47,113 bases of DNA from Triparma columacea (lineage: Eukaryota; Sar; Bolidophyceae; Parmales; Triparmaceae): positions 4,562 to 51,674 of the forward strand of contig BRYA01000470.1 of assembly GCA_030267965.1 (NCBI GenBank), given 5' to 3'. A program made the translations under genes and the position numbers. The notes below the pieces were generated by a model. The model saw nothing but the letters and a program-made list of their open reading frames with translations, had not been told where the DNA came from and made no database searches. Shown piece by piece: positions 10,690 to 39,107 of the stretch (position 1 is the stretch's first letter; each line of letters opens with the position of its first letter).

Positions 10690-10925
10690 TCGGGGTCACT
10701 TTTGAGTCCTTCACTTCACCCAAACTTCATCCGACTTATTCTTCATCTCAGACAACAAGCAGAACAGAGCTTTATAGGGGTCGGCGGCAGTCAGTTTTGG
10801 TTGCACCCATATTAGCACCTACACGACACTTCTTCCTCAGTGGAGTAGCTTGAAGGCTTTCTTGATAAGTTTCACGTCGTAATTTACCGCTATAAACTTA
10901 CACTTGGGGGTTGGTTCGCTGAAAA
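10690..10925 (+). promoter_or_regulatory. Conserved upstream region of the ankyrin-MYND family, with TATA-like box
   Basis: This segment is clearly homologous to the reverse complement of about 38700-38985 and partly 34647-34760, the 5' flanks of the two other ankyrin-MYND genes. A TATAAA at 10891-10896 lies about 30 bp before the ATG and recurs in the other copies (34677-34682 and 38778-38783 on the minus strand). Conservation of the flank shows that the duplications carried the promoter along. Promoter activity is inferred from position. Confidence 0.6.
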
Positions 10926-12056
10926 ATGATATCTCAATCAGAGGTACAATCGTCACACAATTATGAGAGCACAAATGTGACAGTAGATAGTTGGGACGAT
11001 TTGACAGACGGTCAGCAGTTGTGCATAGATTGGGTTCGTGTGCAAGACTGGGATCGCATCAAGGGGTATGCCAAGGAACATGGTCCTGAGGTTTTGTTAG
11101 GCGTTCATAAAAAGCGTGTTGATGAGGAATGGAGGGTACGTTCAGTCCTCACCAGCGCCTCTGCTGACGATAATGTTGAGATGGTCAAGCTTACCTTAGA
11201 CGCCGGCTTTGACAACGAGGAAGCCATGTACATGGCCGCACAAATATCAATAAGGAATAGTGACAATTCAGCAATCTTGAGATTGCTCTTAGAACATGGA
11301 CTTGACCCTAATATGGACCTACGAGTCGAAGGGGCGGAGGAAGGCGCTTCCAACTTTTTGATGGATGCTGCTTATGCGGGACACATTGATCACGCCATAG
11401 CACTTCTCGATCATGGAGCAAATGTGAACAAGACAATGGTTCATTGTGTTGATGGACATGTTGATTCACCACTTACTTGTACTGTCAATTATGGAGCACA
11501 CGACATGTGCAGGCTGTTTCTCACGCGCGGTGCTATTCCAACCACCAACGACGTGCTTTATGTGTTTGACAATTGCCTCGGAGCGTGCATAGGACAACAC
11601 CCTAACCTTAGTAGAGATGGCGCAATAAAGATGTTCACAACATTTGTTCATCTCGGAAAGCCCGACTCCGACGTAGTTCGAGACGAATTCAATAAGATCC
11701 ATCCTTCCCATCACGATCCTACAATCGCCAACATCACGAAACATTACCTTCAAGGCCGTCCCTTCTGCTGTTTCATTTGCGAGGCTCTAACCGCCAAGTC
11801 CCGCGACAAGCTCCTAATGTGTCCCTGTCGCAACGTCGCCTACTGCTCGAGGGAGTGCCAGCTCAAGCACTGGAAGGAGCACAAGGTGCTATGCACGGGA
11901 CCGCTGAACGAAAGGGGGGAAAGTGAGGCAATGGTCAAGAAAAGATCCAAGACAGGGAAGGGAGCGGCGGCGGGAGGAGCGGATGTGGGAGCAGCGGAAG
12001 GAGCAGTTGCGACGGGGAAGACGGGGAAGAAGGGCAAGAAGGGCAAGAAGAAGTGA
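10926..12056 (+). CDS. Ankyrin-repeat / MYND zinc-finger protein (paralog 1)
   Basis: An intronless 376-aa ORF. Residues ~60-210 carry ankyrin-type repeats (RLLLEHGLDPNMD, then AIALLDHGANVNK). Residues ~280-325 are a complete MYND finger: paired CxxC, then CPCRNVAYCSRECQLKHWKEHK and a final Cys. The tail is Lys/Gly/Ala-rich and basic (GKKGKKGKKK). MYND fingers normally mediate protein-protein contacts and ankyrin repeats do likewise, so an adaptor role is likely; the partner is unknown. Paralogs sit at 33495-34646 and 35325-38699 on the other strand, over 60% identical by eye. The ATG at 10926 fits the conserved TATA-like box 30 bp upstream. Confidence 0.9.
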   Translation: MISQSEVQSSHNYESTNVTVDSWDDLTDGQQLCIDWVRVQDWDRIKGYAKEHGPEVLLGVHKKRVDEEWRVRSVLTSASADDNVEMVKLTLDAGFDNEEAMYMAAQISIRNSDNSAILRLLLEHGLDPNMDLRVEGAEEGASNFLMDAAYAGHIDHAIALLDHGANVNKTMVHCVDGHVDSPLTCTVNYGAHDMCRLFLTRGAIPTTNDVLYVFDNCLGACIGQHPNLSRDGAIKMFTTFVHLGKPDSDVVRDEFNKIHPSHHDPTIANITKHYLQGRPFCCFICEALTAKSRDKLLMCPCRNVAYCSRECQLKHWKEHKVLCTGPLNERGESEAMVKKRSKTGKGAAAGGADVGAAEGAVATGKTGKKGKKGKKK

Positions 12057-26367: not shown

Positions 26368-28164
26368 CTATAATATCTTTGACTTCCGCTTACGAGGTTT
26401 GCGGGTGGGAACGATCAGTTTTACAGCGAGGGCGAGGACGGAGAGAAGGGAGACCACTACGGTGGAGAGCGAAGCGACGGCGAGCGAAGCGAGTCGCAAG
26501 ATGGATTGTTAATGGTTTGTGAAGTGGGATGGTTGTTGATCATTGTTTTGGAGGTGGCTCTTGATCGATATCGAGACGACGCCTCGATTTTCGTCACATT
26601 CTCACTCACCAATCAAAGCAAAGGGACGGCTGAATTCACCCGTAAGCGTGTGCGGCACCTCCTCCCAACTAAGGGATGAGCAAGTAGGGGAGGGGGATGA
26701 GCGAAGGGAGGAGCGAAGCACAAAGAGGAACGAAGAAGGGGAGGCGAAGCATAACTCGTCGCTTTGCTCCTTGCCTCATCTCACCTGAAATTCTCTTCCA
26801 TTCTCCCCCTCCCTACCCTCATTTCCGCCAACACCCCACCCCACTCGTCGTGGATCTGCGGCGGCGACAAAAGACGAGCGAAGCGAGTGCAAAAGGGGTT
26901 GGATTTGGATGGATATGCGCAGTAAGGGAGTGCGTGCGCGCAAAGGAACTTTCCCTCAACAGTGCCGGGCGCTACACATTTACACGCATTTACACACATT
27001 TACACACATTTATTCTCACCTTAACGCCCATACCACCCTCGTCCACGTCGATGACCCCAAAGTTCTTGCCAGTGTAGTAAAAGTCCGAGGGATCGCGGTG
27101 GAGGGGAAAGGAAGAGAGCATATGAGGGCACACGAAACCGTACCAAGGGCCGTCGCAGCTGTGCGTGAGGCCGGAGGACGTCACCTCCTTGATGCCCTGG
27201 ACCTCGGCAATCTCTGCGTGGTGGACGTCCCCAGATATTACCAGCAAGCCCGGGGGGCGAGTAGACTTGATGAGCGTTAGGAGGCGGCGCTTGGAGAGAG
27301 GGAAATGACCCCACGATTCTACGAGGGGGTTCGTGGTGAGGAGCTGAATGGAGGATACGAGGATGGTGTGCTGGACGGCGGGGGTGGAAGCGGCGAGGTG
27401 CAGCTCTTTTTCTGCGAAGGGAGAGCGGTGAGCAAAGGGGCAGCGGAAGTTGTTGGCTACTTGCTCACTCTCACCTATCCAATCCCACTGTGCCTGCCCG
27501 AGTACGTCCCCCGTAAACCTGCTACCGGAACCTGTTAGCTTGACGAGGAGCCTCGTGAAGGATGCGATCACGGCGTTTAGTGGGAGACCCTTGATGCCGC
27601 CGACGGAGGGGACAAAGTGGGTGGAACGGAAGGTACGAGTATCTAGGAACAGCACGCGAACAACCCCACCCCCAGGAGAATCGACGTTCCACGCGTGGTA
27701 GACACCCTCCCTGACCCTCCTATCGTCACCCTCTGGCACACCAAGGAAGTCCAGGTACAGCCTCTGACGTTCAGCCTTGTCTGGGAGGTTGATACCAGCG
27801 TCATTTACGCCGTAGTCGTGGTCGTCCCAAGTACCTTCAACGTTGCCGGACGTGACATGGAGGAGATCAGTGTATTCTGGGCTATTCTTCATTGCTTTTA
27901 GGGAGGAGTCGTAGCCTTGGACGGTGGGATCATCCTTAGGTGGGTAGATTGCATCACCAGTCCATAAGAAGTTACTCGGTTGGAGATTTGTTACAACTGG
28001 GAGGATTGAAGGAGCATCAGGGGAAAGACGGTGACTGAAAGGGAGAGAAAGGGGGAGGGTAAGTGTTGAGCGAGGGGAAGGGAGGACTTCTTTTGGGTGT
28101 GGAGAGGTGGAAGGGGGGGGGGAGGGAGAACTTACCACGAGCCAAACGCAAGGAGTGGAGGCAT
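26368..28164 (-). CDS. PhoD-like metallophosphatase with C-terminal membrane anchor
   Basis: Model: complement of 26368..26456, 26610..26668, 26785..26855, 27020..27411, 27475..28034 and 28136..28164; 1,200 nt, 399 aa. The 29-nt first exon joins in phase to give AFGSCHR, the conserved PhoD start. Next come FLWTGDAIYPP, TWDDHDYGVND, RVLFLDTRTFR, VLGQAQWDWI, SSIQLLTTNP and ISGDVHHAEI, the metal-binding and catalytic pattern of the family. The last exon gives one hydrophobic helix (VVSLLSVLALAVKLIV) and a basic tail, so the enzyme is probably tail-anchored. PhoD proteins are Ca/Fe-dependent phosphomonoesterases or diesterases. The substrate here is unknown. The 63-nt intron 27412-27474 is in frame and stop-free, so retention would insert 21 residues. 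Confidence 0.85.
26478..26550 (+). repeat. Intronic dispersed repeat in the PhoD-like gene
   Basis: A copy in the intron 26457-26609 (CGGCGAGCGAAGCGAGTCGC, AAGATGGATTGTTAATGG, then a diverged TTGTGAAGTGGGATGG and GTTGATCATTG). It is antisense to the host gene and lies next to the intron's 3' end. Confidence 0.85.
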
Positions 28165-28327: not shown

Positions 28328-28436
28328 GTTGTTGTGAATGAATGTGAATTATTCCACTTTGTATCCGAGAGCTCATGAGCTCCTTCTCCCCTTTTTTGAA
28401 AAATAGTAACAAAAAATCAAATTGCGCTCCACATGA

Positions 28437-28763
28437 GACACGTGCGTAAAATCACCCTTAAATCATTGCCACCCTTCTCTTCTTACCTTCTTTCCCTTCT
28501 CATAGTGTGGCCGAGCGGGTGAGTTTTCTCTCCCATTCTCCCTTTCATTACCTATTCTTACCATTCTTTCACAACACAGTTAAGGCGGTCGACTAGAAAT
28601 CGACTCTCATTTTGAGGCGTGTCAGTGAATTCTACCTTACCGTTATCACCACATATCAATGCTTACCTTCTTTCTTTCACAGAGGTTCGAGTGTAAGTCC
28701 TCCCACAAATCCTCCCTTTCCCTCGCTCGATACTTACCTTTCCCTTATAGCCTGCCAGTGTCG
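28437..28763 (+). tRNA. tRNA-Ser(AGA) interrupted by four GT-AG introns
   Basis: Exons: 28437..28441, 28506..28518, 28580..28618, 28683..28692, 28751..28763 (80 nt). Introns are 64, 61, 64 and 58 nt; each starts GT (GTGCGT, GTGAGT, GTGTCA, GTAAGT) and ends AG. After removal, GACACTG pairs with CAGTGTC (7/7), the D stem is GCC/GGC, and the anticodon stem GTCGA/TCGAC closes the loop CTAGAAA with anticodon AGA. The variable arm is CTC-ATTTT-GAG and the T stem GCAGG/CCTGC closes TTCGAGT. U8, G18-G19, U33 and the serine-type discriminator G73 are in place. The introns fall in the acceptor stem, D loop, T stem and T loop, none at 37/38. Without excision no continuous acceptor or T stem exists. CCA is not encoded. 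Confidence 0.93.
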
Positions 28764-28773
28764 CAAACTTGTA

Positions 28774-28782
28774 TTTTTTTTT
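28774..28782 (+). terminator. T-run, possible RNA polymerase III terminator
   Basis: Nine consecutive T residues begin 11 nt after the tRNA 3' end. This is the place and form of a Pol III stop. It argues that the whole split gene, introns included, may be a Pol III unit, though T4 runs also lie upstream, in intron 2 and the variable arm. Confidence 0.6.
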
Positions 28783-29126
28783 GCCCGGCAACGCCAAGAG
28801 CACGCTGGCAAAGTTTCGAGAGCGATTGGAGGCAGTGGTAACATACTGGTGGATGAACAACATTGCAATGGTAGGGAGCGTAAAAATCGCCGTAAAAAAA
28901 GCCGTTTTGGTGATAAATTAAATTATTGAGATCAGGTTTTATATGAAGGTGTACGTAATTTTATATATTTTTTCGATAATTCCGTATCATACGTATAACA
29001 ATACCGCTGCGCGAAATTTAAAGCTTAAACGCGAATATCAACCTTCCCCATAACCTCAAACACAATCTATCTCATCTGGGCCAAACTTTTTGCAAGGGTT
29101 AAAACAAGGAGCTTGAAATTAGAGCC
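28783..29126. other. Intergenic between tRNA and channel gene
   Basis: No ORF with recognisable content. AT-rich after 28900, probably the promoter of the channel gene. A structured RNA in 28783-28910 cannot be excluded, but I recognised none. Confidence 0.5.
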
Positions 29127-30911
29127 ATGAGGCTCGCTAACCTCGTTACGTTCTCGACCCTTATTTCGCTAATCCCATGCATTTCCTCCTTCCCTGTAAA
29201 CCCTCTCCAAACACCCCTCTCATCTCCCCCCCTCCTCCTCCCACCGAGACCATTCCCAGCAACCAGCAGTCCGTGTTCGTTCCTCCATCTCCCTCCTCCC
29301 TCCTCGTCGCTTAATCTCCTATCCCTCCAAGCTTCCCGTTCTGGTGATGATTTAGACAATGTTGGTTTCAACATGGCATCACCTCCCCCCCCACCCTCGG
29401 ATGTGATATCAATGGAGGATGGAAAGGAGGAGGCTATCCTGCCGACCGTAGAGGATGCGATCCTTCCAACCGTAGACTCCGCCACTCTCCAAGGCCGTCG
29501 TATATACTACCGTCGTGCTTTATCTGCTCTACTCCTCTTGATGTGTGTTGGTGTTACGTGGTTCTCTCAAGGGGAGGGTTTGGGTTTGGTAGATAGTGTG
29601 GTGAGTGCCACATCCCCCCCCCCCCCAACCCCCTTCGCTTCATCTCAAACCCCCCCCCCCCCAAAAGTACTTTGTATGTACAACCCTCACAAACATAGGT
29701 CACGGTGATGTTCTCCCCCCCCTCCTCCGTTACCCCTCAATCTCCCGCACCATAACCACCCTCCTCTCCTGCTTCGGCGTTCTCCTCGTAGGTAACTTCG
29801 CCGCTATATCCGTCTCCAAGAGGGGTAGGGGAAGTACGGAGGTGAGAATGGACGAGAAACGGAAATGATAAGGAAAGGCATTGCGAAGAAGAGTAATTAT
29901 CCTTCGCATTCGGAGTGCTCATTATGCGGTCCGATCTGATATCTCTGCGAATGTAATAATTCTCCTAACTCACTCGCTCCGCTCGTTCGCAGCAAGGCAG
30001 GGAGGACGCCATTTTCCAAATCAGGAGGCTGACTGGCGTGGTACTCGCGCTTTGGGGGGGAGGGACTTTGGGGCTTAAAATAATGGGGGGGGGGAAATTA
30101 ACAACGCAAGCGTACGTGGTCATGCAGACGTTGACAACGCTAGGACTAGGGGACGTTAAGCAGACATCCCCCCTAACCAAGCTGTTCCTGTCCTTCTACA
30201 GCCTCTTCGGGACGGCTATATTCGGCGGCGTTGTCGGTGCCATGGCGAGCATACCTTTAGAGATGAACGAGAAGAAGGCAAAGGAGTCTGTCTTGGACAG
30301 TCTCCCCGACGAGTTGAACTCAACAGTCTACAAGTTCCTCTCCTCCGGTTCCATAGTCCAGCGTCTAGGTTTGAGCAGGAGTGACGGTTACTGCACCCGT
30401 AACGAGTTCACTCTCCTCGTATTGGTGAGGCAGGGGTTGGTAACGGAGGAGGAACTGCAGATGTGCAGGGACAAGTTCGATAAGCTGGACACTGACGGTA
30501 GCGGGAAGATAACGAGGGTCGACCTTGTACAGGTGAGGATGATAAATACGGAGACGGCTCGACAACATAAGCCTTCTTACCACGAGTCCACAATCCTAAC
30601 CCACTCGACGCAACCCCTTGTGCTACTCGCTTCGCTCGTCGCAGGTGCAGGGGAGGAACTGGGCGAGGGGGGTGGTTAGAGGTTTAGTACGTGGTATATG
30701 GGGGTGGGGGGGTGAGAGGGGGAGGAGTGGCGAGGAGCGAAGCGACGAGCAGGATGGGGAGGAGGAGGTGGAGGTGGAGGAGGAGAAGGAAAAGGAGGAG
30801 GAGGAGGAAGGAAGTGTGATAGAGGAGGACGGAAGTGTAATAGAGGAGGAGGGAAGTGTAATAGAGGAGGTTGGAGAGGGAGAAGGAGAGGGGGTGAAGG
30901 GGGAAGTATAA
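29127..30911 (+). CDS. Two-pore-domain K+ channel with EF hand, probably plastid or secretory targeted
   Basis: Model: 29127..29600, 29668..29841, 29993..30532 and 30645..30911; 1,455 nt, 484 aa, all in phase 0. The N-terminus is a signal-peptide-like stretch ending CISSF, which fits an ASAF-type motif of secondary-plastid proteins (inference). One membrane helix follows (ALSALLLLMCVGVTWFS), then the first pore TTLTNIGHGD, a helix, and after a spacer the second pore TTLGLGDV with a helix. The C-terminal side has an EF hand, DTDGSGKITRVDL, and a degenerate one before it, as in plant TPK channels. The last exon as modelled gives an acidic tail with three GSVIEE units. An alternative last exon at 30957-31120 (SWETPDALTSSG...) is also open, so the C-terminus is uncertain. 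Confidence 0.82.
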
Positions 30912-33494: not shown

Positions 33495-34646
33495 TCACTT
33501 CTTCTTACCCCTACCATTCTTGCCCTTCTTCCCCTTCTTGCCATTCTTCCCCGTCGCAACTGCTCCTTCCGCTGCTCCCACATCCGCTCCTCCCGCCGCC
33601 GCTCCCTTCCCTGTCTTGGATCTTTTCTTGACCATTGCCTCACTCTCCCCCCTTTCGTTCAGCGGTCCCGCGCATTGCACCTTGTGCTCCCTCCAGTGCT
33701 TGAGCTGGCACTCCCTCGAGCAGTAGGCGACGTTGCGACAGGGACACATATGGAGCTTGTCGCGGGACTTGGCGGTTAGAGCCTCGCAAACAAAACAGCA
33801 GAAGGGACGGCCTTGAAGGTACCGTTTCATGATGTTAGCGATTGTAGGATCGCGTCTGGAAGGATGGTATGAATTGAATTCGTCTCGAAGTACGTCGGAA
33901 TCGGGCTTTCCGAGATGAAGAAATGTTGCGAACATCTTTATAGCGACATCTCTACTAAGCCTAGGGTTTAGTCCTTTGCACGCTTTGAGGCAGAAACCAA
34001 ACAAATGATATACGTCGTTGGTGGTTGGAATAGCACCGCGCGTGAAAAACAGCCTGCATATATCGCGTGCCCCATATCTCACAGTATAAGTAAGTGGTGA
34101 AAGAATGTGTCCATTAGGGAAAACCACTGTCTTGTTCACATTTGCTCCATGATCGAGAAGTGCTATGGCCTGATCAATGTGTCCCCTTTCAGCAGTAAGC
34201 ATCAAAAGGTTGTAAAAGCCTTCCACCAACCCTTCGAATCCTGCGTCCATATTAGGGTCAAGTCCATGTTCTAAGAGCAATCTCAAGATTGTTGAATTGT
34301 CACTATTCCTCATTGACACATCTGCGGCAATGCACATGGCTACCTTGTTGTCGAAGCCGGCCTCTAAGATAAGCTTGATCATCTCAACATTATCGTGACG
34401 AGAGGCGATTGAGAGGACTGAAACTACCGTCCTTTTCTCATCAACTCGCATCTGCTTTGTATAAACGCCTAACAAAACCTCAGGACCATGTTCCTTGGCA
34501 TACCCCTTGATGCGATCCCAGTCTTGCTTACGAGCCCAGTTTATGCACCTCTTTTGACCGTCTGTCAAATCGTCCCAATTATATACTGTCACATTTGTGG
34601 TCTCTGATGATTTGTGTGACGATTGTTCCTCCGATTGTGATTCCAT
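33495..34646 (-). CDS. Ankyrin-repeat / MYND zinc-finger protein (paralog 2)
   Basis: An intronless 383-aa ORF collinear with the protein at 10926-12056: the same WDDLTDGQ start region, ankyrin units (LRLLLEHGLDPNMD; AIALLDHGANVNK), MYND finger (CPCRNVAYCSRECQLKHW) and a basic GKKGKKGK tail. The start ATG at 34646 is preceded by the family's conserved flank and a TATA-like box at 34677-34682. An adaptor role is likely, with no known partner. It is part of a minus-strand tandem cluster with a relic (34790-35028) and the fused paralog (35325-38699). Confidence 0.9.
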   Translation of the reverse strand: MESQSEEQSSHKSSETTNVTVYNWDDLTDGQKRCINWARKQDWDRIKGYAKEHGPEVLLGVYTKQMRVDEKRTVVSVLSIASRHDNVEMIKLILEAGFDNKVAMCIAADVSMRNSDNSTILRLLLEHGLDPNMDAGFEGLVEGFYNLLMLTAERGHIDQAIALLDHGANVNKTVVFPNGHILSPLTYTVRYGARDICRLFFTRGAIPTTNDVYHLFGFCLKACKGLNPRLSRDVAIKMFATFLHLGKPDSDVLRDEFNSYHPSRRDPTIANIMKRYLQGRPFCCFVCEALTAKSRDKLHMCPCRNVAYCSRECQLKHWREHKVQCAGPLNERGESEAMVKKRSKTGKGAAAGGADVGAAEGAVATGKNGKKGKKGKNGRGKKK

Positions 34647-34789
34647 TTTTGTGCGAACCTACCCCAAAATTTGTGTTTATAGCGGCAAATTACGACGTGA
34701 AACGTATAAATTAAGACTTGAACGTACTCCACTTAGGCAGAAGTGTCGTGCAGATGCTAATATTGGAGTCAACCTCTGAGAAAGTTTCA

Positions 34790-35324: not shown

Positions 35325-38300
35325 CTAACCACCCCCCCCCCCCAATCCCCCCCCACGGCTCGCTTCGCTCGCCGCCCCCTCAAGCACGTCCCTCCGCACG
35401 TAAACGAGACTGGATATTGGTGGCGACGTGATTGGAAAGGTGAGAAGGACAGGAAGGAAAAGAATATCGTCTGCCCACTGACGAATACTCAACATTGACG
35501 CAACATTAGCCCCCACCCCAAACCCCTTCAGCGGTTCGCTTCGCTCACCGCGTTCGCTTCGCTCACCGCGTTCGCTTCGCTCACCTGACCGCGTACTTCG
35601 ACGAGATGCGCCTCGCAGCGTCCATCGCGGGAGCCCTCCGCGTCTCGTTGCACACGTCGTACTCGTACCACTTCTCATCCGTAGCTTTCGCGTAGCCCAT
35701 GTACCTGCCTTCCGGAACAGGCACCGCGATGGTTCCGCTGACCGAAGCTGAAGCGTGGAGGAGCGAAGCGACGAAAGGAGGTGGTTAGATCTAAAATACT
35801 ACGCTTGCTGCAGAAACCATGCATTAATTTTCACCGTCGTCGCTGCGCTCCTCCAGATCTAAACTGCTACGCTTGCTGCAGAAACCTGATTAATTTTCAC
35901 CGTCGTCGCTGCGCTCCTCCGTTTCCTCACAAACTACTACGCTTGCTGCAGAAACCTGCATTAATTTTCACCGTCGTCGCTGCGCTCCTCCGTTTCCTCA
36001 CATTTTCCGAACCCATTTATCGGCTGGTACTTCGCCATGAATCGAAGGTCGTACAGTGTGCAGGCTCCCTCTGGCGGCATGCAAGGTAGCATCGGCGCGA
36101 GGTCTAGGCCGACAACAGGGAAACTGACCTCAGAGAAGTCGAAGTCTTTGAAGGTAGACCTTACGATTGAGATGGGAAAAATGGGCGGCAGTGAGAGGAA
36201 GAAGCCCCGCTTCCAGGGGGCGTCGGGAATTTCATCCCATTTATCCTCTTCGCCGCTCTGGAACCAGTTGTCCCCAACCGCCGTGTATCTCCAGCCCCCA
36301 AACCTAGAACTTTGAAGGCAGCCGTTGCAGCTCTTGCTGGTTCCGAGCACCAGACCTTCCTCGAGATCCGTGAAGTCTCTCGAACTGATACTCAGAATGT
36401 AAGAGTTGGAGAGGTTGACACGGCCGAACGTATCGATGCCGCAGACGCTGCATCCCGCCGTGGCATCCAGCTGAAGCGGGGCAGTGAACACATCCTGGTA
36501 GCCATTCACGCGGCGATCCAGGAGCGTAGAGGCCAGCACATCGTTGAGCGAGGTGCTGTGCTGCGGCGGACTCTTGATCAAGCCAGAATCGAGCCTGAGG
36601 CTAAGCGACGTCGACATGAAGTCGCCGGCGAACTTGCCAGGAGGAGGCGTCAAGGAAAAACCATAGTTGTTCCCGGCGGTGGATTTGACTGTGAAGGAAA
36701 ACGAAGGCGACGCCGGACAGGAAGAGTCAGGAATGCGAACCCTGGTCTCCACTCTCAACTCGATCTCCTTCTGGCAGATCGGGCATTTGGTTATGCCCGC
36801 ACCGATCATCTGCCGGAAGCACGTGGTGTGAAGAACGTGCCCGCACTGCAGAGTAGTCTGGCTAGTATTATTTGAAAATAAGAGGTTGTTGACAACGTCC
36901 AGGGCCTTGCAGCAAACCGGGCAGTCGTTTGTCTCTGTCGGTGCGACCTTGACGAGAGGGAACGAGACGTCAAAAACACTCATAAGCATCATAGAAAAAT
37001 CGTAGCCGTCACCGAGCCTCGCAGCAGCAGCGTCGAACTCCTTCCCCTCCTCAAAATTCACGCAGCTCTTCAGCTCATCGAGAGTGCGGCCGAGGCACGT
37101 TCCCGTCATTGCCGACTGGAGCTGCGGAACGGCCTGCACGAGCGCGAGAATGCAAGCCATAGCGTCGCACTTGGAATCATTGTGGTGTCGCGCGTCGGAT
37201 TCGCAGCCGGGGAGGAGGAGAGGGGAGGGAGGAAGGGGAACAAATGTCTCCAGACAGGGCGGGGTCGGCTGCAGAACGTGCTTGGAACGCCACTCAACCA
37301 AGGCTGTGGTCCGGTCCTCGCTTGCGAGGCAGTTGGGGAGAGGCTGTGGCTCAAACCGCTTCTTGCACTCTGCCTTGTGGCTTGCTTTCCAGTGCTGCAC
37401 CTGACAGGCCTTCGAGCAGTAGCTAGGCCCCTTGCACCGAGAGCATTTTTTTTTACCAAAGGAGCCGCAATTGGCGCACATCGAAGAGCTATGCAGCACT
37501 TCGATGGTGGTCTCTCCAGAGGACGGTCGGAAGGAGGGAGCAGGAGGAGAGCCGGAGGAGGCGTGAGGCGAAGACGACTTGGCCGACTTTGACTTTGACT
37601 TTGACTTTGACGGCGACGACGACGCTACTCCCACATCCGCTCCTCCCCCCTTCGTCCCCTTCCCTGTCTTGGATCTTTTCTTGACCATTGCCTCACTCTC
37701 CCCCCTTTGGTTCAGCGGTCCCGTGCATTGCACCCTGTGCTCCCTCCAGTGCTTGACCTGACACTCCCTCGAGCAGTAGGCGACGTTGCGACAGGGACAC
37801 CTTAGGAGCTTGTCACGATCACGCTCCTTGGCAGTTAGAGCCTCGCAAACAAAGCAGCAGAAGGGACGGCCTTGAAGGTAATGTTTCGTGATGTTGGTGA
37901 TTGTAGGATCGCGATAGGAAGGTACAACAGAATTGAATTTGTCTCGAAGTACGTCGGAATCGGGCTTTCCGAGATGAAGAAATGTTGTGAACATCTTTAT
38001 TGCGACATCTCTACTAAGCCCAGGGTGTTCTCCTTTGCACGCGTTGAGGCAGAAAGACAACGCATAATGCACGTCGTTGGTGGTTGGGATAGCACCACGC
38101 GTGAGAAACAGCCTGCATATGTCGTGTGCTCCATAATTGACACTAAAAGTAAGTGGTGAAGCAACATCTCCATCAGAGGTAACCCCTGTCTTGTTCACAT
38201 TTGCTCCATGATCGAGAAGTGCTATGGCCTGATCAATGTGTCCCATTTTAGCAGCAGATATCAAAAGGTTGTAAGAGTATTTCACCACCCCTTCGACTCG

Positions 38301-38699
38301 TAGGTCCATATTAGGGTCAAGTCCATGTTCAAAGAGCAATCTCAAGATTGTTGAATTGTCAACATTCTTCATTGACATTTGTGCGGCAGCGAACATGGCT
38401 TCCTTGTTGTCCAAGCCGGCCTCTAAGGTAAGCTTAACCATCTCAACATTTTGGTGAAGAGAGGCGAATGAGAGGACTGAAGCTGCCATCCATTGCTCAT
38501 CATGCTTTTTCCAAACGCCTAACAAAACCTCAGGACCATGTTCCTTGGCATACCCCTTGATGCGATCCCAGTCTTGTTCAGCAGCCCAGTTGCAGCACAA
38601 CTGCTGACCGTCTGTCAAATCGTCCAAACTAGATACTGGCACATTTGTGGTCTCTGATGAATTGTGTGACGATTGTACCTCTGATTGAGATTCAAACAT
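35325..38699 (-). CDS. Ankyrin-MYND-MYND-USP-like protein with inserted RING finger
   Basis: Model: complement of 35325..35409, 35585..35747 and 36002..38699; 2,946 nt, 981 aa. Residues ~15-325 are the ankyrin-MYND unit. A Ser/Lys linker and a second MYND (CANCGSFGKKKCSRC, then YCSKACQVQHW; ~407-443) follow. The rest looks like a ubiquitin-specific protease: Cys-box-like NDSKCDAMACILALVQAVPQ (~507), GYDFSMMLMSVFD (~565), a CxxC finger and LPPIFPISIV. The two spliced exons then supply GRYMGYAKATDEKWYEYDV and LVYVRRDVL, the usual end of the fold. A RING-H2-like finger (CPVC, CGHVLHTTC, CPIC; ~592-640) is inserted. The USP box His is replaced by Arg (GRY for GHY), so protease activity is doubtful. 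Start 38699 is chosen from paralog alignment. Confidence 0.75.
35791..36001 (-). repeat. Three ~65-70 bp repeats filling a USP-gene intron
   Basis: Three copies of a unit (CTACGCTTGCTGCAGAAACC, then TTAATTTTCACCGTCGTCGC, TGCGCTCCTCC) occupy the intron 35748-36001. The two right-hand units also repeat the donor sequence (minus strand GTGAGGAAACGGAGGAGC), so donor-like and CTGCAG acceptor-like sites recur through the intron. Confidence 0.88.
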
Positions 38700-39107
38700 A
38701 TAATCTAAATCATCTAGTATTTTGATCCGATCCGCCTCTGAGATTCCATTTTTGAGCGAACTTGCCCCAAATTTGAGTTTATAGCGGCAAATTACGACGT
38801 GAAAGCGATCAACAAAGCCTTGTAAGTACTCCACTTAGGCAGAAGTGTCGTGTAGGTGCTAATATTGGAGTCCAACCAAAACTGACTGCCGCCGACCCCA
38901 AAAAAGGCTGTGCTTGTTGTCTGAGATGAAGAAGAAGTCGGAGAAGTTTGGGTGAAGGACTCAAAAATTGACCCCGTCAAAAGGCTAGGGTAGCACTAAC
39001 TTGGAAAGGGAGGATATTAGGAGGCTTTTTAGGCTTTGGTCCTTCATCTTTTGGGATCTGCTCCGACTCATTCTCCTTTTTGCCCAAAAACACTTCTAAA
39101 CTTTGTG

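Follow-up and report, generated by a model that had tools for sequence, protein, structure and literature searches.

Five exons and four GT-AG introns in a tRNA-Ser(AGA) gene of Triparma columacea, where many tRNA genes are probably matured by the spliceosome

The window analysed here is the whole 47,113-nt stretch of DNA from Triparma columacea, a bolidophyte; the genome paper places the Bolidophyceae as sister to the diatoms (PMC10328945). A tRNA-Ser(AGA) gene in five exons is flanked by a minus-strand PhoD-like phosphatase gene and the plus-strand gene TrCOL_g7716, and has the following parts:

28410..28418, plus strand: upstream element CAAAAAATC, 18 nt 5′ of the first tRNA base, a probable core promoter element
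28437..28441, plus strand: exon 1, GACAC, tRNA nucleotides 1-5
28442..28505, plus strand: intron 1, 64 nt, donor GTGCGT, CTTAC A 20 nt from the end, acceptor TAG, splitting the acceptor stem at 5/6
28506..28518, plus strand: exon 2, 13 nt, containing an intact TGGCCGAGCGG, which we take from its consensus to be A-box-like
28519..28579, plus strand: intron 2, 61 nt, donor GTGAGT, CTTAC A 19 nt from the end, acceptor CAG, in the D loop after tRNA nucleotide 18
28580..28618, plus strand: exon 3, 39 nt, anticodon arm (AGA) and variable arm
28619..28682, plus strand: intron 3, 64 nt, weak donor GTGTCA, CTTAC A 17 nt from the end, acceptor CAG, splitting the T stem at 50/51
28683..28692, plus strand: exon 4, 10 nt, AGGTTCGAGT, at whose end what we take by consensus to be the B box is interrupted after nucleotide 9 of 11
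28693..28750, plus strand: intron 4, 58 nt, donor GTAAGT, CTTAC A 14 nt from the end, acceptor TAG, at site 60/61
28751..28763, plus strand: exon 5, 13 nt, 3′ part of the T stem, 3′ acceptor strand and discriminator G
28774..28782, plus strand: T9 run, a probable RNA polymerase III terminator
28798..28831, plus strand: conserved downstream element GAGCACGCTGGCAAAGTTT(C)GAGAGCGATTGGAG

When joined, the five exons (5, 13, 39, 10 and 13 nt) give an 80-nt sequence that ARAGORN calls as tRNA-Ser(aga) with a score of 119.2. It pairs completely in the acceptor stem (GACACTG/CAGTGTC, 7/7) and in the anticodon and T stems (GTCGA/TCGAC and GCAGG/CCTGC, 5/5 each), and it has the long variable arm, the AGA anticodon and the discriminator G that the original prediction had described. 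All coordinates of the four introns proposed there, and their lengths of 58-64 nt, are borne out, as are the GT start and AG end of every segment and the presence of a pyrimidine tract, which we measured as 73-93% pyrimidine across the 30 nt 5′ of the AG in all four. Two of the four donors are GTRAGT (GTGAGT and GTAAGT), one is near it (GTGCGT) and one, that of intron 3, is weak (GTGTCA), which counts against the model.

A 387-nt stretch holds 46 GT..AG segments that are 45-100 nt long; their combinations were spliced in silico and the products scored with ARAGORN. When this was done without the YTNAY branch-point filter, the four-intron model came out at the top of 4309 combinations (119.2), with the runners-up, in which one or more ends were shifted by a few nucleotides, scoring at most 117.9; with the filter (3758 combinations) the same model was again the best. 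A comparable splice search gave no tRNA call in 300 dinucleotide shuffles and none in 478 other tiles of the window on both strands (482 overlapping tiles minus the four plus-strand tiles covering the gene), although the combinations available per control were fewer, averaging ~390 for shuffles and ~620 for tiles against 3758 in the real stretch. A chance origin of the cloverleaf is rejected on these controls. With six alternative dinucleotide pairs at the gene, five gave no tRNA call and GT..AC gave 10 calls with a best score of 103.0. The unspliced gene was reported neither by ARAGORN, which found no tRNA in the whole window, nor by Rfam at gathering scores. The observation of a five-exon tRNA-Ser(AGA) is confirmed.

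The genome search covered 37.85 Mb in 789 contigs, compared with a published assembly of 43.0 Mb (PMC10328945). The original prediction had called for a search for an intact tRNA-Ser(AGA) elsewhere, and no second copy was found in the 37.85 Mb; the joined-tRNA query matched only exon 3 of the window gene. This search missed the related tRNA-Ser(TGA), so a diverged copy would be missed as well, but an identical intact copy should have shown. The accompanying suggestion that other split tRNAs be sought proved productive, as 19 further tRNA genes are split likewise and the pattern is genome-wide. Altogether, 20 of the 30 tRNA genes that we reconstructed hold 38 GT-AG introns, one to four per gene and 57-80 nt long, typically of the form GTRAGT...CTTAC...YAG, and the affected genes serve 11 amino acids. 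Four introns each are present in Ser(AGA) and Leu(AAG), which thus also has five exons; three each in Ala(CGC) and Thr(AGT); two each in Arg(TCT), Arg(TCG), Thr(CGT), Phe, initiator Met, Val(CAC) and two copies of Val(AAC); and one each in Leu(TAG), Leu(CAA), Arg(CCT), Lys(TTT), Trp, elongator Met, Gln(TTG) and a permuted Ser(CGA). The ten genes with no GT-AG intron are Ser(TGA), Leu(TAA), Leu(CAG), Thr(TGT), Gly(CCC), Ile(TAT), two Lys(CTT), Pro(AGG) and Val(TAC). One of the Leu(AAG) introns lies between nucleotides 33 and 34, immediately 5′ of the anticodon.

These genes were collected starting from a tRNA search in which 63 of 675 candidates were scored, giving a few intact and several broken tRNAs, and then with the downstream element, the upstream CAAAAAATC and a T-loop pattern as baits; the proportion of 20 in 30 should not be read as a rate for the whole genome, since the sample is incomplete and was partly found through shared elements. 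The T-loop plus terminator pattern gave 65 matches against 60 with a reversed control and so is by itself no evidence; it was used only where a match forms a tRNA, which yielded Leu(AAG) and Phe. Within these non-exhaustive searches (63 of 675 candidates, 37.85 of 43.0 Mb), tRNAs for Asp, Asn, Cys, Glu, His and Tyr, among others, were not found. Automatic models required GT..AG ends and a loose YTNAY motif, and models built by hand and checked were used for both Val(AAC) copies and for the permuted Ser(CGA). For Thr(AGT) the second-best model (120.1 versus 120.2) was taken because it preserves the usual variable loop, and the introns that the automatic model placed in Thr(TGT) were rejected as spurious, being outside the tRNA; that gene is intact. 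Left out of the 30 were Arg(CCG) repeat copies (L005-L008, L017, L022), Glu-like repeats (L015, L020) and a tail fragment (C208). The Arg(CCG) copies look like a repeat family, some of them degenerate, and the stretches examined for them show none of the external elements that accompany other tRNA genes.

Two of the reconstructed genes have further peculiarities. The tRNA-Ser(CGA) gene (L074, G000:C199:16940-17500, minus strand) is circularly permuted, its 3′ half preceding its 5′ half, and a 59-nt GT-AG intron lies in its T loop; ARAGORN scores it at 116.8 once joined and makes no call if the intron is retained. The tRNA-Trp (L037, on G000:C81), once spliced, has an unusually long variable region of ~16 nt from the anticodon arm to the T arm.

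The extreme fragmentation of the window locus might suggest a decayed or processed copy rather than a working gene. We regard this as the remotest of the explanations considered, given that every stem of the spliced form is perfect, that the 37.85 Mb searched yielded no further copy, and that the upstream element, the T run and the downstream element are all retained. Moreover, initiator Met, elongator Met, Trp and Phe tRNAs were likewise met in split form only in our non-exhaustive searches.

Intron signals were compiled for 38 introns, namely 36 from tRNA genes (one duplicate Val(AAC) copy left out) and two from the U6 gene described below. The donor is GTRAGT in 28 of the 38 (GTAAGT in 19 and GTGAGT in 9), and the introns end in CAG (18), TAG (17) or AAG (3). 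Of the 38, 33 carry a CTTAC or CTAAC at a distance of 12-40 nt from the end, compared with a mean of 6.3 and a maximum of 15 in 200 shuffles; because the automatic reconstruction required YTNAY the branch-point count is partly circular, this stricter CT[TA]AC count less so.

Ordinary eukaryotic tRNA introns occupy one fixed site, are cut by the tRNA endonuclease and follow no GT-AG rule. Such 37/38 introns without GT-AG ends also occur in T. columacea, alone in Pro(AGG) and beside GT-AG introns in Met and Phe, so that a second, different route exists, and the two intron kinds coexist even inside single tRNA genes. The genome also encodes the tRNA endonuclease family (PF01974), and multiple and ectopic tRNA introns cut by this enzyme at bulge-helix-bulge motifs are described in the red alga Cyanidioschyzon merolae (PMC3978253, PMC9602550), both of which would be in keeping with GT-AG introns of the archaeal and red-algal kind, whose terminal dinucleotides would then be incidental. 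Against this explanation are the GTRAGT donors and the CTTAC or CTAAC motifs, in the proportions given above, and the fact that none of the 33 automatically modelled GT-AG introns lies at site 37/38. In the bulge-helix-bulge, a 3-nt bulge at each splice site flanks a central helix of 4 bp. This helix was complete and in exact register in one of the 33 introns against 0.9 expected, and in none of the four in the window; the test is only moderately sensitive, with three canonical-intron positive controls giving 4, 3 and 3 of the 4 pairs within 1 nt of register. We therefore consider endonuclease cleavage of the GT-AG introns very unlikely.

A similarly rearranged tRNA set is described for C. merolae (PMC3978253, PMC9602550). 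As among the genes reconstructed in T. columacea, most tRNA genes are disrupted (34 of 43 in C. merolae), permuted genes occur, A and B boxes are interrupted, and a TATA-like upstream sequence and a T run are present; the introns number up to three per gene there and up to four here. In contrast, the C. merolae tRNA introns are described as bulge-helix-bulge, whereas those of T. columacea have GT-AG ends and branch-point motifs with bulge-helix-bulge at chance level, and in C. merolae spliceosomal introns are reported in only a few protein genes (PMC3978253, PMC9602550).

In T. columacea, the introns of the protein genes on both sides of the split tRNA are, by sequence, broadly alike in kind to those of the tRNA genes. 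One in the PhoD-like gene, 101 nt long and at 28035-28135 (minus strand), has the form GTAAGT...CTTAC...CAG, and its removal gives a protein start, MPPLLAFGSCHRLSP, in agreement with MPLTLAFGSCHRLHP of the Triparma laevis relative. TrCOL_g7716 has ion-channel and EF-hand matches, and three aligned blocks of it are 100% identical to a T. columacea protein, with a fourth, extending into an intron, at 87%; its introns are GTGAG-type and the first (29601-29667) is without a clear branch-point motif. For 19 candidate protein introns, delimited from open reading frames of the window and of loci near it, lengths were 63-154 nt and CTNAY was present in 13; the tRNA introns, at 57-80 nt, are shorter and more uniform than this small ORF-based sample.

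Other small RNAs bear on the same question. A U1 match (E 1.5e-13) and a U3-like match (E 1.1e-4), both under the Rfam gathering score, are without large insertion, and the U1 5′ end, ATACTTACCTGG, is complementary to the GTAAGT donor. The single U6 match (E 1.2e-14; 47 of 1886 candidates scored), at G000:C272:8150-8640 (L100, L101), is interrupted by two GT-AG introns, 66 and 72 nt long, each having a branch-point motif, with the exons read by eye; the first intron lies inside the 5′ hairpin, which its removal restores. A separate undescribed machinery, perhaps a dedicated spliceosome variant for polymerase III transcripts, would sit well with the shorter, more uniform tRNA introns and with the presence of introns in U6 beside U1 and U3-like matches that show no large insertion. 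We hold it to be improbable, if somewhat less so than endonuclease cleavage, as the signals are ordinary spliceosomal ones, including those of the neighbouring PhoD-like intron. The length difference and the TrCOL_g7716 intron without a clear branch point leave room for a partly specialised route.

The flanking elements are shared with other genes. The upstream element CAAAAAATC occurs in exact form in 18 of the 27 tRNA gene contexts compared and as a variant in the remaining nine, and is exact in 14 of the 23 contexts that were found without using it as bait; it also lies 5′ of U1 and the U3-like gene, with a variant 5′ of U6. The upstream pattern had 42 matches against 13 in the control, made up of 17 tRNA genes, the U1 and U3-like genes, one further locus (L071) and 22 places whose first 480 bases show no visible tRNA. 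This pattern was the sole route to five of the tRNA genes, which are not counted as support for it. The further locus (G000:C145:18374-18940) has the same upstream element and a AATTTTTTTG stretch, and matched nothing in Rfam at E 1. Runs of T7-T9 (T5-A-T5 in Ile) stand at the same place in 21 genes. Of the 27 tRNA gene contexts, 21 have the downstream element 3′ of the T run, several of these having been found with it as bait; it is present in 12 of the 14 non-repeat tRNA genes from the unbaited tRNA search. It has the form GAGCAYGCTGGCAAAGTTTGAGAGTGATTGGAG at 28798-28831 and at loci L024-L043, with a partial match 3′ of the U3-like gene (L070). Two patterns of it gave 20 matches and 22 rows at 21 places, respectively, each with none in the control and 19 at tRNA genes; a looser pattern gave 45 matches against six, the unexplained ones having three mismatches except two with two. 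No exact match to it was present in viral contigs or GTDB genome contigs, collections from which near relatives may be absent.

These elements fit an external, snRNA-like promoter with a T-run terminator, an arrangement argued for the tRNA genes of C. merolae (PMC3978253). In tRNA-Ser(AGA) the B box is cut by intron 4, so transcription is probably by polymerase III from the external upstream element. Runs of at least five T inside the introns number two in 38 against 5.5 expected from shuffles; this is a weak depletion, so the polymerase III case rests mainly on the terminal T run.

Taken together, the sole tRNA-Ser(AGA) gene found in the 37.85 Mb has five exons and four GT-AG introns with CTTAC branch-point-like motifs, which are probably removed by the spliceosome. 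The original prediction had proposed maturation by the spliceosome or by machinery using its signals, and this gains support from the like introns in 20 of 30 tRNA genes, the chance-level bulge-helix-bulge, the 37/38 introns alongside and the U1 5′ end; on such sequence signals, spliceosomal removal is the best-supported mechanism. Polymerase III would transcribe the gene from the external CAAAAAATC to the T9 run; U1 would then pair with the donors and U2 engage CTTAC, and the four short introns would be removed by intron definition, which would allow exons of 5-13 nt. End trimming, CCA addition and folding would yield the 80-nt tRNA. The same course may be proposed for the 19 further tRNA genes and for U6, and since these tRNA genes are split in the same way, the cell likely makes many tRNAs through the spliceosome. 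The ordinary 37/38 introns presumably go through the tRNA endonuclease, in which case Met and Phe tRNAs would need both machineries.

A precedent for such processing is fission yeast U6, likewise a polymerase III non-coding RNA, which is matured by splicing of an mRNA-type intron thought to stem from reverse splicing (PMC10484740); there, U6 occupies the active site of the spliceosome, unlike tRNAs. If our U6 model is right, the spliceosome of T. columacea depends on splicing for its own U6, as reported for fission yeast (PMC10484740). The original prediction knew of no described case among tRNAs, and within the open-access literature searched we likewise came across no nuclear tRNA gene described as having GT-AG or spliceosomal introns. 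The T. columacea genome paper names tRNAscan-SE, and the word "intron" does not occur in its main text (PMC10328945). As ARAGORN found no tRNA in the window, a standard tRNA finder can miss many tRNAs in such a genome.

Some of the introns are similar to one another. The two introns of tRNA-Val(CAC) (L047, G000:C52:47054-47203, minus strand) are 93% identical, with no other place reported in the genome searched, and are a candidate case of an intron recently copied inside a single gene. Arg(TCT) and Arg(TCG) have similar introns at a common site, which gene duplication would lead one to expect. Similarity above the best of 703 shuffled pairs (16.5) was also present between Val(AAC) and U6 (24.5), initiator Met and Val(AAC) (18.5), Lys and Phe (18.0) and two Leu(AAG) introns (17.0), although scores other than Val(AAC)-U6 are marginal and shared signals inflate them. 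These likenesses suggest that introns may have been copied between polymerase III transcripts, conceivably by reverse splicing. A few near-identical introns, such as those of Val(CAC), recall introner elements, but no large family was found in the 37.85 Mb searched; a genome-wide introner family was rejected, as the window locus matches only itself and the Val(CAC) intron is reported in two copies, both in the same gene.

We lean, by a little, towards a broader reading in which the spliceosome of this lineage is a routine tRNA-maturation machine, introns have spread among polymerase III genes (tRNAs and U6) by reverse splicing, invasion became tolerable once an external element shared with snRNA genes had freed the tRNA genes from their internal promoter, and the Val(CAC) twins are a fresh copy. 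If spliceosomal-type introns do break up a large part of a nuclear tRNA set, translation would be tied to the spliceosome, and exons as short as 5-13 nt would prove joinable in structured RNAs. Such a set, with intron copies that appear recent, would also allow tests of intron gain by reverse splicing.

Elsewhere in the window, three open frames (10923-12056, 33495-34658 and 35961-38834) are mutually similar by eye and form a local gene family with ankyrin-like and zinc-finger sequence, the latter of which we take to be MYND-like.
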